Assembly: GCA_034521975.1 (NCBI GenBank)
Contig: JAXHLR010000003.1
Coordinates: 124,001-188,000, forward strand
Origin: Acidimicrobiales bacterium
GTDB lineage: Bacteria; Actinomycetota; Acidimicrobiia; Acidimicrobiales; SKKL01
Reading direction: 5' to 3'
DNA length: 64,000 nucleotides
In this document: positions 39,613 through 47,035 of the stretch, in pieces
Layout: every line of letters begins with the position of its first letter
Position numbering within the stretch: the first letter of the stretch is position 1
The notes under the pieces: model-generated
What the model was told of the DNA's origin: nothing
The model's database searches: none
The model's input: the letters and a program-made list of their open reading frames with translations, nothing else
Translations under genes and position numbers: made by a program

Positions 39613-42299
<2,687 letters not shown>

Positions 42300-42302
42300 G
42301 TT

Positions 42303-42427
42303 CCGGTCTCCTCGTGCTCGACCGGGCACCTCACGAACGCGACGGACCCGGCCAGTGCTTGCGTGGCATACGGGCCGGGTTCGCTCTGGCTCCCCCACCG
42401 ACTGTGTGCGACCAAAGAGTCGGTGGG
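42303..42427 (-). ncRNA. LPxTG leader RNA, copy A (cis-regulatory candidate)
   Basis: Coding-strand order: hairpin CCCACCGACT (42427-42418) with AGTCGGTGGG (42403-42394), loop containing TGGTCGC; then the junction AGAGCGAACCCGGCC; then helix CCCGGCC (42379-42373) with GGCCGGG (42353-42347); then a hairpin CCGGTC (42325-42320) with GACCGG (42308-42303) whose loop holds the GAGGAGA ribosome site, next to the ATG at 42299. The stem sequence of the first hairpin differs from copies B and C while loop and junction are shared. No match to a named riboswitch is recognised. Confidence 0.6.
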
Positions 42428-42567
42428 ATCGCTGCCTCCCGCTCTGGTCAGACCGCAGTTCCGGCCTGACCACGCTGCGCAGTATCCGTGCCACCGAGTG
42501 CGTCCGCATGAGCCGGGAGTCCCAATCTGCGCGAAATGGGCCATCGGACCCACGCCGTCGCACGCGA

Positions 42568-42600
42568 CGAGCGGAGGGCCCCATGGGGACCCTCCGCTCG
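42568..42600 (-). terminator. Hairpin after the second LPxTG gene (copy B)
   Basis: CGAGCGGAGGG (42568-42578) and CCCTCCGCTCG (42590-42600) form an 11-bp stem extended by GC pairs, 28 bases past the stop of copy B. It is nearly the same as the hairpin after copy C. No T-run on the minus side, so the mechanism is uncertain. The remaining gap to copy A's leader (42428-42567) shows no gene. Confidence 0.5.
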
Positions 42601-42627
42601 TGCTCGTCCAGATGATCGGTTGCTAGA

Positions 42628-44313
42628 TCACCGGAGCCGGCGGCTGGCGGCACGCAGGGTGGCGCCGAAGCCCATGGTCAGCGCGGCGACCATGGCCAGG
42701 ATGCCGGCGGAGATGCCGGTGCGGGGCAGCGAGGCGGGAGCCGACGCCGGAGGCTCCTCCTCGGTGCCCTCGACCACGGTCTCCTCACCGGGAGCTTCCT
42801 CACCGATGCCCCCGACCTCACCGTCGTCGCAGGCCTCGAACACGACGTCCTCGTTGACCAAGACGACGCCGTCGGCCCGAACGATGACGCTGGTGGTGCC
42901 CTCGATCGTGAGCGGGAGGGTCTCCTCGCCCTCGAGCGACTGGTCGTAGACGACCGAGCCGTCCACCTCGACCACGAAGTCCGAAGCACCATCGGTGCTC
43001 GAGAACGTCACGGTGCCGTCGGCATCACAGACATAGGACAGCGACGCCGAGGTCACCGGATCGTCCTCCGGGGGCGGAGGCGGCGGAGGGCAGTCCTCGG
43101 CCGCAGCGATGTCGATCTCCATCGGGAAGGCATCGTCGCCCACCAGGACGTGGCCTTCCTGGGCCTCGACCGACAGGGTGCCGCTGATCGGACCGGTGAG
43201 CTCACCCACGACCTTCTCGGGTCCCTCGCCGGTGTCGAGCAGATAGAACACCCCTCCGACATCAGGGATCACCAGCGTGCCCTCGACCTCGCACTGCTCG
43301 GACTGGTTCACCTCAGGATCAACCGGGGTGACCTCCTCGGGGCAGGGATCACCGACTCCGAGGTCGAAGGGGTAGCTCCACTCCTCGGTCAGCTCGTACC
43401 CCTCGTCCGCCTCGGCGGTCAGAGTGCCGGACAGCGGACCCTCCAGGGTCTCACCGCTCACGTCATCACCATCGAGGAGATAGATCACGCCCTCGGTATT
43501 GGGGACGTGCAGCTTGTCGGGGACCTCGCACTCCTTCGAAAGCGTCACCTCGGGATCCTCAGGGGTGACCTCCTCGGGGCAAGGATCACCGACTCCGAGA
43601 TCGAAGGGATAGCTCCACTCCTCGGTGAGCTCGTACCCCTCGTCCGCCTCGGCGGTCAGAGTGCCGGACAGCGGACCCTCCAGGGTCTCACCGCTCACGT
43701 CATCACCATCGAGCAAGTAGGTCACACCCTCGGTATTGGGGACGTGCAGCTTGTCCGGGACCTCGCACTCCTTCGAAAGCGTCACCTCGGGATCCTCAGG
43801 GATGACCTCTTGGTCGCAGTCGCCGTCGAGCTCGACCTTGGCGCTCTCGGTGCGATAGTGGCCCGAAACCGGGTAGTAGTCCTGATCGCCAAAGTCGCGC
43901 TCTTCCCACTCCCAGTGCACATCCACGTCGAGTTCCTGCCAGCCGCTGGTCGAACCGGCCAGCTGTTGGGTCGCGGTTGCCGACTCGCCAGGGGCAAGGG
44001 TTGTCGAGCTGAACGAGACGGTCGGATCGGTGCTATCGATCACCATGTCCTTGGCGGTCGCGCGAGGCGGCCAACCGGAGTAGGAGGACTCGACGGGATC
44101 GTTCCACGACTCGTCGGGGTGATGGATCGTCCAGGTGACGACGTACTCACCCGTGTCCGTGTCGCACTGCCAGCTGCCACTCAGGTTGGCGTGGTGTGCA
44201 AATGCCGCGGGGGCGAACGCAATCAGGCTGGCGAGCAGGGCCAGGACGAGCCCGACTCCGCTCAGGATCTTGCTCCGGGGTCGCGTGGACCCGGGGGCGC
44301 GGAACGTACTCAT
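42628..44313 (-). CDS. LPxTG-motif surface protein with tandem modules (copy B)
   Basis: A 561-residue sortase substrate. A classic signal peptide ends near residue 39 (AFA|HHANLSG). It has a distinct N-terminal domain (~40-170), then three 79-residue modules, two nearly identical (CEVPDKLHVPNTEGV...GYELTEEWSYPFDL), each bounded by single Cys residues, a Pro run (PPPPPPP), a conserved domain (VTSASLSYVCDADG...FEACDDGE) and the sorting signal LPRTG at ~529 with hydrophobic tail and RRLR end. The last 130 residues match copy C almost exactly. It is probably a wall-anchored stalk-like adhesin; ligand unknown. Confidence 0.87.
   Translation of the reverse strand: MSTFRAPGSTRPRSKILSGVGLVLALLASLIAFAPAAFAHHANLSGSWQCDTDTGEYVVTWTIHHPDESWNDPVESSYSGWPPRATAKDMVIDSTDPTVSFSSTTLAPGESATATQQLAGSTSGWQELDVDVHWEWEERDFGDQDYYPVSGHYRTESAKVELDGDCDQEVIPEDPEVTLSKECEVPDKLHVPNTEGVTYLLDGDDVSGETLEGPLSGTLTAEADEGYELTEEWSYPFDLGVGDPCPEEVTPEDPEVTLSKECEVPDKLHVPNTEGVIYLLDGDDVSGETLEGPLSGTLTAEADEGYELTEEWSYPFDLGVGDPCPEEVTPVDPEVNQSEQCEVEGTLVIPDVGGVFYLLDTGEGPEKVVGELTGPISGTLSVEAQEGHVLVGDDAFPMEIDIAAAEDCPPPPPPPEDDPVTSASLSYVCDADGTVTFSSTDGASDFVVEVDGSVVYDQSLEGEETLPLTIEGTTSVIVRADGVVLVNEDVVFEACDDGEVGGIGEEAPGEETVVEGTEEEPPASAPASLPRTGISAGILAMVAALTMGFGATLRAASRRLR
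43325..43798 (-). repeat. Two tandem 237-bp modules in LPxTG copy B
   Basis: Segments 43325-43561 and 43562-43798 are almost the same base by base (starting GGGGTGACCTCCTCGGGGCA on the plus strand). The period of 237 bases equals 79 codons and is the same as the repeat in copy C. This is the DNA basis of module number change. Confidence 0.85.
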
Positions 44314-44660
44314 GAACGTGGCCTCCTCTGTAGCGTGGCGTCAGAGGAGCCGAGCCGCCTCAGGGATGCACCGGCTCCTCGAAAGAAGGGGCCGGGTTCG
44401 CTCTAGCTCCCCGCGGGCCTCAGCGACCAGAACTACCGGCCCACGGATCGACACTTCCCCTGTCACCGCTATGTCGTGGCGCGGTGACGTGGCACTCAGG
44501 TAACCACGCTACGTGGCAGATGTCCAGAGAATCTGTGGATCTGAGTCGTCCGACCCATCAAGTTCTCACAATCGGTGGTCGAGAAGCCGCCCTTCGCGTC
44601 GAGACTGGACTCACGCCGCCACCCAGCGTGGACCCCACCCGCCTCACGGGCCGCAGCGAA
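44314..44660 (-). repeat. Upstream region duplicated between LPxTG copies B and C (B side)
   Basis: This stretch of roughly 340 bases before copy B is near-identical to 46697-47035 before copy C, including a hairpin (GTCACCGC/GCGGTGAC), CCACG repeats and a TTGATG box. It shows that the leader and promoter were duplicated together with the gene. The gap holds no gene. Confidence 0.75.
44322..44446 (-). ncRNA. LPxTG leader RNA, copy B (cis-regulatory candidate)
   Basis: First hairpin: CCGTGGGCC (44446-44438) with GGCCCGCGG (44419-44411), loop containing TGGTCGC; junction AGAGCGAACCCGGCC. Then a switch region: P2 pairs GGGGCCGG (44388-44395, plus) with CCGGCTCC (44371-44378); P3 pairs GGCTCCTC (44373-44380) with GAGGAGCC (44344-44351); P4 pairs CAGAGGA (44342-44348) with TCCTCTG (44324-44330), which covers the ribosome site (44322-44328). 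P2 and P3, and P3 and P4, are mutually exclusive. Further upstream a GTCACCGC/GCGGTGAC hairpin and candidate promoter lie within 44461-44580; the rest of 44600-44750 shows no gene. Confidence 0.65.
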
Positions 44661-44753
44661 CCTTGCGGCACTGGCATGACCGAACGCGTCTGCATGAGCC
44701 GGGAGTCCCAATCCATGCGAAATGGGCCGTCGGACCCAGGCCGTCGCACGCGA

Positions 44754-44786
44754 CGAGCGGAGGGCCCCAAGGGGACCCTCCGCTCG
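44754..44786 (-). terminator. Hairpin after the third LPxTG gene (copy C)
   Basis: CGAGCGGAGGG (44754-44764) and CCCTCCGCTCG (44776-44786) form an 11-bp stem, 26 bases past the stop of copy C, matching the hairpin after copy B (42568-42600). The arms are identical; only the loop differs. Confidence 0.5.
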
Positions 44787-44812
44787 TGCCGTTCAGATGA
44801 TCGGTTGCTAGA

Positions 44813-46696
44813 TCACCGGAGCCGGCGGCTGGCGGCACGCAGGGTGGCGCCGAAGCCCATGGTCAGCGCGGCGACCATGGCCAGGATGCCGGCGGAGATG
44901 CCGGTGCGGGGCAGCGAGGCGGGAGCCGGTGCCGGGGGCTCCTCGTCGGTGCCCTCGACCACGGTCTCATCCTCGGGAGCTTCCTCTTCGATGCCCCCGA
45001 CCTCACCGTCGTCGCAGGCCTCGAACACGACGTCCTCGTTGACCAGGACGACGCCGTCGGCCCGGACGATGACGCTGGTGGTGCCCTCGATCGTGAGCGG
45101 GAGGGTCTCCTCGCCCTCGAGCGACTGGTCGTAGACGACCGAGCCGTCCACCTCGACGACGAAGTCCGAAGCACCATCGGTGCTCGAGAACGTCACGGAG
45201 CCGTCGGCGTCACAGACGTAGTCGACCGAAGCCGCGGTCACCGGATCGTCCTCCGGGGGCGGGGGCGGCGGGGGGCAATCCTCGGCGGCAGGAAGATCGA
45301 CCTCCTCGCTCCACTCGGCCTCGGTGAGCTCGTAGCCCTCGTCCGCCACGGCGGTCAGAGTGCCGGAGCGTGGACCGTCATAGGTCCCGGGAGCGATCTC
45401 GTCGCCATTGAGGAAGTAGGTCACACCTTCGGTGTCGTCGATCACCAGCGTGCCCTCGACCTCACACGCCTCCGACAGGTTCACAACCGGTGCCACCGGA
45501 GCCGCGTCGTCGCACGGCTCGGCGGCAGGAAGATCGACCTCCTCGCTCCACTCGTCCTCGGTGAGCTCGTAGCCCTCGTCCGCCACGGCGGTCAGAGTGC
45601 CGGAGCGTGGACCGTCATAGGTCCCGGGAGCGATCTCGTCGCCATCGAGGAAGTAGGTCACACCTTCGGTGTCGTCGATCACCAGCGTGCCCTCGACCTC
45701 ACACGCCTCCGACAGGTTCACAACCGGTGCCACCGGAGCCGCGTCGTCGCACGGCTCGACGCCGGCGACGTCGATTTCGTAGCTCCAGCTCTCGTCCTCG
45801 AGCACGAAGCCCTCGTCCGCCACGGCGGTCAGAGTTCCCGAGATCGGCCCGTCATGGGTGCCAGCCTCGATCGGCTCACCGTCGAGCAGGTAGGTGACGC
45901 CCTGCGAGGAGAGGATGTGCACCTGTCCGGGGAGGTCGCATCGGGGCGCATCGCTCACCTGCGGATCGACCGGGGTCGCCTCGGTGCAGTCGATGGCCGC
46001 GGGCAGGACCACCGGGAACGACCACTGCGAATTCGTCAGCTCGTAGCCCGCCTCGGCCTCGGCGGTGAGGGTGCCCGATTCGGGACCGTCGTAGATGCCC
46101 GCCTCGATCGGATCACCGTCGAGCAGGTACTGCACGCCCTCGGTATCGGGGATCTCGAAGGTCCCCTCCACGCCGCACTGCTGGGACGGGGTCACGGTCG
46201 GCTCGACCGGAGCGGTCTCCTGCTTGCAGTCACCGTCCAGGGACACCTCGGTGATGCGGATGTCGTCGCCTCCACTTCCGCTGGCCCACGAGCCGACGGC
46301 GACAGACCGGATCCGCAGGTGGGTCGTGTCGCCAGGCACTGTGAACGAATCACCGAAGGAAGTAACCTCCTCGGTGAACTCGCCCTCGAACGCAGGACTG
46401 GACCAGCCGCTCAGGCTGTTCCAGTTCGTACCGGCGCCGGGATCGGTGGTGTACCTCGGCCGGATGTCGTCGTGGATTCCGGAGGGCTCACCGGGGTTCC
46501 ACGACGAGGTCTCCCAGTCAACGATGTAGTCGCCCGTAGCGGGGTCGCACTCGGCCGAGCCAGTGATCTCTGCATGGTGGGCGAATGCGCTGGGCGCGAA
46601 CGCGATCAGGCTGGCAAGCAGGGCCAGGACGAGCCCGACTCCGCTCAGGATCTTGCTCCGGGGTCGCGTGGACCCAGGGGCGCGGGACGTACTCAT
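44813..46696 (-). CDS. LPxTG-motif surface protein with tandem modules (copy C)
   Basis: A 627-residue sortase substrate. The ATG at 46696 has GGAGG about nine bases upstream. The signal peptide is almost the same as in copy B (AFA|HHAEITG). The N-terminal domain (~40-180) differs from copy B's, then come four ~79-residue modules (two almost identical, APVVNLSEACEVEGTLVIDD...DLPAAE), the PPPPPPP run, and the same C-terminal domain and LPRTG tail (~595) as copy B. Duplication followed by exchange or divergence of the N-terminus fits best. Ligand unknown. Confidence 0.87.
   Translation of the reverse strand: MSTSRAPGSTRPRSKILSGVGLVLALLASLIAFAPSAFAHHAEITGSAECDPATGDYIVDWETSSWNPGEPSGIHDDIRPRYTTDPGAGTNWNSLSGWSSPAFEGEFTEEVTSFGDSFTVPGDTTHLRIRSVAVGSWASGSGGDDIRITEVSLDGDCKQETAPVEPTVTPSQQCGVEGTFEIPDTEGVQYLLDGDPIEAGIYDGPESGTLTAEAEAGYELTNSQWSFPVVLPAAIDCTEATPVDPQVSDAPRCDLPGQVHILSSQGVTYLLDGEPIEAGTHDGPISGTLTAVADEGFVLEDESWSYEIDVAGVEPCDDAAPVAPVVNLSEACEVEGTLVIDDTEGVTYFLDGDEIAPGTYDGPRSGTLTAVADEGYELTEDEWSEEVDLPAAEPCDDAAPVAPVVNLSEACEVEGTLVIDDTEGVTYFLNGDEIAPGTYDGPRSGTLTAVADEGYELTEAEWSEEVDLPAAEDCPPPPPPPEDDPVTAASVDYVCDADGSVTFSSTDGASDFVVEVDGSVVYDQSLEGEETLPLTIEGTTSVIVRADGVVLVNEDVVFEACDDGEVGGIEEEAPEDETVVEGTDEEPPAPAPASLPRTGISAGILAMVAALTMGFGATLRAASRRLR
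45281..45754 (-). repeat. Two tandem 237-bp modules in LPxTG copy C
   Basis: Segments 45281-45517 and 45518-45754 are nearly identical (starting CTCGGCGGCAGGAAGATCG on the plus strand), with only a few base changes. The 237-base period matches that in copy B. Confidence 0.85.
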
Positions 46697-47035
46697 TGAA
46701 CGTGGCCTCCTCTGTTTCGTGGCGTCAGAGGAACCGGTCCGCCTCGGGGGATGCACCGGCTCCTCGAAAGAAGGGGCCGGGTTCGCTCTAGCTCCCCGTG
46801 GGCCTCAGCGACCAGAACTACCGGCCCACGGATCGTCACTTCCCCAATCACCGCTATGTCGTGGCGCGGTGACGTGGCCCTCAGGTAACCACGCTACGTG
46901 GCAGATGTCCAGCGGAACTATGGATATGAGCCGTCCGACCCATCAAGTTTTCACCTTCGGTGGTTGATACGCCGCCCTCCTCGTCGAGGCTGGGCTCACG
47001 CCGCCACCCAACGTGGACCTCACCCACTCCACCCC
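46697..47035 (-). repeat. Upstream region duplicated between LPxTG copies B and C (C side)
   Basis: Near-identical to 44314-44660. It carries a TTGATG box and CATAGT about 18 bases apart on the minus strand (plus 46946-46917 region), a plausible promoter that would give a leader of about 220 bases. Otherwise this 411-base gap before the divergent CorC gene shows no coding frame. Confidence 0.75.
46705..46831 (-). ncRNA. LPxTG leader RNA, copy C (cis-regulatory candidate)
   Basis: First hairpin CCGTGGGCC (46831-46823) with GGCCCACGG (46804-46796), a perfect 9 bp; loop contains TGGTCGC; junction AGAGCGAACCCGGCC. Switch helices: P2 GGGGCCGG (46773-46780, plus) with CCGGCTCC (46756-46763); P3 ACCGGCTCCTC (46755-46765) with GAGGAACCGGT (46728-46738); P4 CAGAGGA (46726-46732) with TCCTCTG (46708-46714) covering the ribosome site. 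Compared with copy B, P3 keeps pairing although several bases differ, which supports a real structure. Confidence 0.65.

Follow-up and report, generated by a model that had tools for sequence, protein, structure and literature searches.

Results

Three genes for LPxTG surface proteins on the minus strand of a 64,000-nucleotide stretch of an Acidimicrobiales bacterium genome (assembly GCA_034521975.1, contig JAXHLR010000003.1, positions 124,001 to 188,000; hereafter, the window) are each preceded by a structured leader RNA which, as judged by sequence comparison, is a riboswitch aptamer of the cyclic di-guanosine monophosphate (c-di-GMP) II clan (Rfam CL00127) and not a member of an unknown class. 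An initial annotation, made from the letters of the window alone, had described a shared pseudoknotted leader with covarying stems before these genes, which is confirmed here by the sequence itself, by a covariance model and by double changes; its statement that the leader matches no known class, on the other hand, fails. The same annotation had left the choice between a riboswitch and a protein-bound leader, of which the riboswitch type stands. No protein is needed to account for the RNA, though one of the BldD type may bind to the DNA further upstream. As a whole, we consider it quite probable that a c-di-GMP-II-type switch acts on the LPxTG proteins together with transcription control of the BldD type.

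The three leaders, termed copies A, B and C, share the junction AGAGCGAACCCGGCC (Table 1), which is absent elsewhere in the window even if up to two mismatches are allowed (0.45 occurrences expected). The hairpin preceding it has the stem CCCACCGACT/AGTCGGTGGG in copy A, while in copies B and C the 5' arm is CCGTGGGCC, paired with GGCCCGCGG in B (with one G-U pair) and with GGCCCACGG in C. In other words, the stems differ between A and B/C with pairing kept, and TGGTCGC is present in all three loops, as had been noticed at the outset; only the 3' arm GGCCCACGG, at first ascribed to both B and C, belongs to C alone. Beyond that first reading, the fold also includes an outer helix P1 and a 3-bp helix P2. 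The distance from aptamer to start codon is, as described, near-constant, at about 64, 67 and 69 nt for A, B and C, respectively (ATGs at 42299, 44313 and 46696). Since B and C are nearly identical paralogues, with copy A divergent, the window provides evidence from two independent stems rather than three, and the rest comes from relatives.

In particular, a covariance model (R1) built from 45 relatives, mostly with U37 and A69 (see below) and none of the window's genus, detects exactly three copies in the window (A, 55.8 bits, E 6.2e-13; B, 66.6 bits, E 6.4e-16; C, 65.8 bits, E 1e-15; next match, E 0.013) and exactly six in the genome (weakest, 3.2e-11; next match, 0.023). Its alignment contains 203 double-change cells, compared with 91 in shuffles and at most 69 in slid controls, and 22 pairs with double changes; the covariation score is 0.396 versus 0.11 for the best slid control, with the inner part of P1, P2, P3 and the pseudoknot all supported. 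The pseudoknot originally proposed between GGUCGC and GCGA(A)CC is borne out, with 99.7% of its pairs kept in the 45 relatives and 14 double changes at the outermost pair. What is more, the search with such a model that the initial annotation had suggested turned out positive, giving many relatives upstream of surface-protein genes and with compensatory changes. In a sample of 396 genomes from the whole phylum, R1 has matches in 113.

The assignment to the c-di-GMP-II clan was made because of Rfam matches in the window and in the genome. Namely, at the curated (gathering) cut-offs Rfam reports only tRNAs in the window, and the matches of the three copies were obtained at permissive settings. 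The best Rfam model for copies C (42.1 bits, E 2.9e-5) and B (41.5 bits, E 3.9e-5) is RF03170 (c-di-GMP-II-GCG), while RF01786 (c-di-GMP-II) fits copy A better (31.3 bits, E 1.9e-5). Two further genome copies lie above the RF03170 cut-off (C3:16105, 51 bits, and C3:24741, 48.4 bits), and another scores 37.4 with this model in a whole-genome search; within the bacterial class, RF03170 has matches in 93 of 395 genomes. The features that define the clan, P1, P2, P3 and a pseudoknot between loop and 3' strand, are all found here. That said, none of the Rfam families is a full match. RF03170 has the same P1-P2-P3 fold and pseudoknot, the loop GGUCGC, C70 and G73, but it carries G69 and C37 where the window copies have A69 and U37, and these are one nucleotide shorter before the pseudoknot strand (AGA-GCG versus AGUGGCG). 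RF01786, together with the structure 3Q3Z, has the same topology, U37, A69, CC at 71-72, G73 and the GGA and P2 junction, but A70 where the window copies have C, and the pseudoknot letters are GGGCAC/GUGCAACC in RF01786 as opposed to GGUCGC/GCGAACC. Finally, RF03169 (c-di-GMP-II-GAG), of the same clan and the commonest relative in this bacterial class, where it precedes LPFTG-type surface proteins, differs by G69, A70, C37 and the pseudoknot GGUCACC/GGUGA.

The ligand pocket and its subtypes

The ligand contacts in 3Q3Z include U37, A69, A70, C71, C72 and G73 (PMC7288161). If the pseudoknot strand is read as pairs, a two-base bulge, CC and a G, the canonical class becomes AAG, and the same reading would explain the Rfam names GAG and GCG, although this interpretation of the names is our own. 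It agrees with the Rfam assignment, in that RF03169 received the A70 forms and RF03170 most of the C70 forms (the C70 exceptions in our sample being L050, assigned to RF01786, and L096, assigned to RF03169). All six copies in the genome, the three of the window included, read A69-C70-G73 (ACG), which is neither the canonical AAG nor either of the variants GAG and GCG: A69 departs from the G69-C70-G73 of RF03170 and C70 from the A69 and A70 of RF01786. Judged by its letters, ACG represents, in Acidimicrobiia-type bacteria, a variant pocket within a riboswitch clan that is already known. Among 145 relatives, there are 60 GAG, 39 AAG, 37 ACG and 3 GCG forms. Of 88 genomes, 26 contain ACG, in several cases alongside AAG or GAG. 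The exact short-ACG pattern occurs in 15 stretches among 84,980 species genomes, nine of them labelled as Acidimicrobiia, Acidimicrobiales or Acidimicrobiaceae, three as Microthrixaceae or Aquihabitans, two only as Actinomycetes or Actinomycetota and one as a Streptosporangiaceae bin.

Positions 37 and 69 covary, with U-A in 75 sequences, C-G in 61 and seven exceptions (136 of 143), a co-change that should be useful for modelling the pockets of the Rfam forms GAG and GCG. In the literature available to us, c-di-GMP-II-GCG appears only as an Rfam class, and we found no ligand test of it; two papers from 2017 are said to describe such variants. The C70 form now has hosts and a gene context, namely sortase-anchored surface proteins, a phosphodiesterase and moaA, and since sibling aptamers with canonical letters exist in the same genomes, ligand specificity is directly testable by comparison. 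In one case (L050 and L145, G286:C32:86073-86475), two aptamers separated by about 320 bp, AAG first and ACG second, lie in tandem ahead of a single secreted-protein gene, which could mean that one ligand is answered more sharply or that two ligands are sensed.

Downstream genes and the host

The three LPxTG genes are the only ones in the window; all three, and no other genes of the window, carry the leader. Three sortase matches are present in the genome. A signal-peptide-like N terminus is present in 95 of the 110 genes downstream of relatives' aptamers, where 110 is the number with a clear start and Shine-Dalgarno sequence and the background, 10 of 44 window genes, is rough; many of these proteins have LPxTG tails. 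Furthermore, the sixth genome copy lies 43 nt before a gene for an EAL phosphodiesterase of 297 aa in which the usual catalytic residues, EALLRW and DDFGTG among them, are present. With 33 GGDEF and about 20 EAL matches, the genome has what is required both to make and to degrade c-di-GMP. In Paraclostridium, c-di-GMP-II switches upstream of surface-anchor protein genes control these genes (PMC9481103).

Predicted expression platforms

Free-energy folding suggests competing helices in each leader, and all three platforms would switch through this competition (Table 1). In copy A, a predicted helix CCGGUC:GACCGG encloses the Shine-Dalgarno region, while in B and C the arm following the aptamer can, in the predicted fold, pair with the strand that would otherwise hide the Shine-Dalgarno sequence. 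Both layouts, as modelled, favour ON with ligand. A scan for promoters and terminators gave nothing above chance. With no terminator detected in the leaders, and with the Shine-Dalgarno sequence of each placed in hairpins that compete, control would be exerted at translation. We also attempted to obtain the direction of switching from computed accessibility: in the bound state, the Shine-Dalgarno sequence becomes more accessible in 54 and less in 7 of 107 AAG, ACG and GAG cases. This approach was rejected, as a bias of almost equal size arises with shuffled linkers; it therefore mostly reflects the forcing of the aptamer strand.

Dyads upstream of the aptamers

Within 110 bp upstream of the aptamers there is a second element, absent from the initial annotation, the dyad R-YCAC-N5-GTGR-Y. 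In a cross-validation in which one half of the genomes served to train the matrix and the other half to test it, 63 of 144 upstream regions (44%) score above 10 bits, compared with 18 of 1440 shuffles (1.25%) and 0 of 137 coding stretches. The sequence of the arms is conserved, not just their pairing, and double boxes are mostly 20-22 bp apart, i.e. two helical turns, both of which speak for a DNA operator. In the window, 6 of the 8 matches to YCACNNWNNGTGR fall in the two intergenic stretches before B and C, three in each and with matching spacing; since B and C are duplicates, the two sets count once.

The published box of Streptomyces BldD is TNAC-N5-GTNA, the protein bears the signature RXD-X8-RXXD, and together with c-di-GMP it represses (PMC4151990). 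The genome studied here, that of a non-Streptomyces actinobacterium, encodes a single BldD homologue (L230, G000:C2:77053-77247), whose DNA-binding part resembles the BldD domain 2EWT (E 1.3e-19) and whose C-terminal part resembles the c-di-GMP-bound BldD domain 4OAZ (E 4.5e-11), with an additional match to 5KHD. It contains RQD-x8-RNDD, which conforms to the c-di-GMP-binding signature, and it scores 148 bits with the NCBIfam model TransRegBldD, below the model cut-off of 250. A 12-bit box lies upstream of its own gene. Compared with the Streptomyces regulon, then, the signature, the AC-N5-GT core with its spacing and a candidate box before bldD are shared, whereas the outer letters, T/A in the BldD box, are mostly C/G here, and the putative boxes precede riboswitch-controlled surface-protein genes. 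The exact BldD consensus with 2 mismatches was also tried and set aside (49 matches versus 26 in shuffles, a weak excess), the dyad matrix giving the better description. The strict pattern CCACNNAGNGTGG is not enriched genome-wide, with 9 matches versus 20 for the reversed pattern; three of the 9 are upstream of copies B and C.

Discussion

Comparison has established the fold, the class and the conserved pocket letters, along with the gene association and a genome rich in GGDEF and EAL. On this basis, we propose that the ACG aptamers adjust the translation of LPxTG cell-wall proteins to the cellular level of c-di-GMP, which is itself the likely ligand. Namely, its binding would close P1 and the pseudoknot, withdraw the 3' strand of the aptamer from the expression platform and thereby free the Shine-Dalgarno sequence, so that, with a modest preference on our side, the leader would be an ON switch. 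The one to three YCAC-N5-GTGR dyads upstream of the RNA would act as operators, and we lean slightly towards assigning them to the c-di-GMP-dependent transcription factor BldD, of which the genome has one. A second level of c-di-GMP control upstream of the ACG riboswitches is, going by these motifs, probable, and the same second messenger would then read the surface-protein genes twice, at the promoter and in the mRNA. If the BldD-like operators are real, one messenger would act on both transcription and mRNA of the same adhesin-type genes, an arrangement of which we found no description. One may speculate that a repressing BldD and an ON switch would oppose each other and confine the response to a window of c-di-GMP levels.

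Several observations weigh against this proposal. Copies B and C miss the RF03170 cut-off of 47.9 bits and copy A the RF01786 cut-off of 53.5 bits. Position 70 is C instead of A, and a riboswitch whose pocket letters have changed can have another ligand. Five ACG copies of one family (L131, L139, L169, L073 and L135) precede MoaA-like genes, one of them confirmed by a hidden Markov model (L131, TIGR02666, 358 bits), and we know of no obvious link between c-di-GMP and molybdenum cofactor synthesis. For ACG aptamers, accessibility exceeds the shuffled-linker control in 13 of 28 cases, which does not separate ON from OFF. A simple scan revealed no sigma-70-like promoter, and the putative boxes, YCAC-N5-GTGR, are not exactly TNAC-N5-GTNA.

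One alternative, which touches the BldD half only and which we rate somewhat below an even chance, is that the dyads are hairpins at the 5' end of the RNA or sites of another factor. It is favoured by the C/G outer letters and by the missing genome-wide enrichment of the strict pattern, and some dyads may indeed fall inside the transcript; nevertheless, conservation extends to the arm sequence, the spacer is exactly 5 as in the BldD box (PMC4151990), paired boxes keep a distance of two helical turns and the bldD gene itself has a box. The same fold could, secondly, bind another ligand before the same genes, the C70 pocket recognising a different nucleotide, such as a guanine dinucleotide of mixed or linear type. 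Position 70 is, after all, a listed ligand contact in 3Q3Z (PMC7288161), Rfam keeps C70 and A70 forms as separate variants, and moaA is a gene class seen here only downstream of ACG copies. Yet we deem this unlikely: ACG and AAG occur together in genomes, ahead of the same kinds of genes and in one instance in tandem ahead of a single gene, an EAL phosphodiesterase gene follows one ACG copy, and positions 37 and 69 hold the canonical U and A. Still more doubtful is a related scheme in which ACG, with its C70, senses another guanine dinucleotide while the BldD-like boxes read c-di-GMP, the leader integrating two messengers. That the leader is a protein-bound RNA or a structured 5' untranslated region sensing no small molecule strikes us as very improbable: GC-rich leaders do fold easily, and hairpin fold z-scores are only -1.3 to -3.6, but in its pseudoknot, junction and pocket letters the leader conforms to a riboswitch clan whose ligand binding is proven, and the ligand contacts 37 and 69 change together between U-A and C-G. 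A recent, functionless duplication of the upstream region, which the near-identity of B and C might suggest, is already contradicted by the covariation, as fold and letters are retained, with compensatory change, in copy A, in three more genome copies and in those across the class.

Table 1. Positions of the leader elements, candidate operators and genes in the window
Feature	Position	Strand	Remarks
Aptamer, copy A	42364-42448	-	c-di-GMP-II-type, ACG subtype; upstream of LPxTG gene 41073-42299
Aptamer, copy B	44381-44467	-	c-di-GMP-II-type, ACG subtype; upstream of LPxTG gene 42628-44313
Aptamer, copy C	46766-46852	-	c-di-GMP-II-type, ACG subtype; upstream of LPxTG gene 44813-46696
Pseudoknot loop UGGUCGC, copy A	42408-42414	-	From sequence; first U is position 37 of 3Q3Z
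Pseudoknot loop UGGUCGC, copy B	44423-44429	-	As copy A
Pseudoknot loop UGGUCGC, copy C	46808-46814	-	As copy A
3' pseudoknot strand AGAGCGAACCCGGCC, copy A	42373-42387	-	Bulge AC, CC, G are 69, 70, (71, 72), 73
3' pseudoknot strand, copy B	44390-44404	-	Sequence match
3' pseudoknot strand, copy C	46775-46789	-	Sequence match
Predicted platform, copy A	42300-42363	-	ACCCGGCC (aptamer):GGCCGGGU would compete with P1 and pseudoknot; free-energy fold
Predicted platform, copy B	44314-44380	-	GAGGAGCCG:CGGCUCCUC would compete with GGCUCCUCUG:CAGAGGAGGCC, the latter hiding Shine-Dalgarno AGGAGG; free-energy fold
Predicted platform, copy C	46697-46765	-	GAGGAGCCGGU:ACCGGUUCCUC would compete with UUCCUCUG:CAGAGGAG (Shine-Dalgarno); free-energy fold
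BldD-like box, copy A	42469-42483	-	ACTGCGCAGCGTGGT; 12.8 bits, matrix trained without this genus
BldD-like box 1, copy B	44504-44516	.	CCAC-N5-GTGG; 17.6 bits held-out
BldD-like box 2, copy B	44566-44578	.	Pattern YCACNNWNNGTGR
BldD-like box 3, copy B	44619-44631	.	Pattern scan
BldD-like box 1, copy C	46889-46901	.	CCAC-N5-GTGG; 17.6 bits held-out
BldD-like box 2, copy C	46951-46963	.	Pattern scan
BldD-like box 3, copy C	47004-47016	.	Pattern scan
LPxTG surface-protein gene A	41073-42299	-	408 aa; Pfam Gram_pos_anchor 16.9 bits, under cut-off 20
LPxTG surface-protein gene B	42628-44313	-	561 aa; LPRTG tail, signal peptide
LPxTG surface-protein gene C	44813-46696	-	627 aa; InlB-B-like repeats, LPRTG tail

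Further observations

Genes B and C, each with its leader, look like the product of a tandem duplication. Near-identical repeats at 42510-42640 and 44690-44820 span the 3' end of each of these two LPxTG genes and extend beyond it, carrying an inverted repeat of the type GGAGGGYCCC/GGGGACCCTCC. Elsewhere among the relatives, several aptamers (L096, L115, L050, L060, L137 and others) precede small secreted proteins with AYW/AYF-STGGSGTGTA-like N termini, which have no Pfam match in those tested and are perhaps a biofilm-matrix family. Two GAG aptamers (L085 and L109) are followed, at a distance of about 280-310 nt, by type IV pilin-like genes (GFTLVELLIVIVILGILAA).

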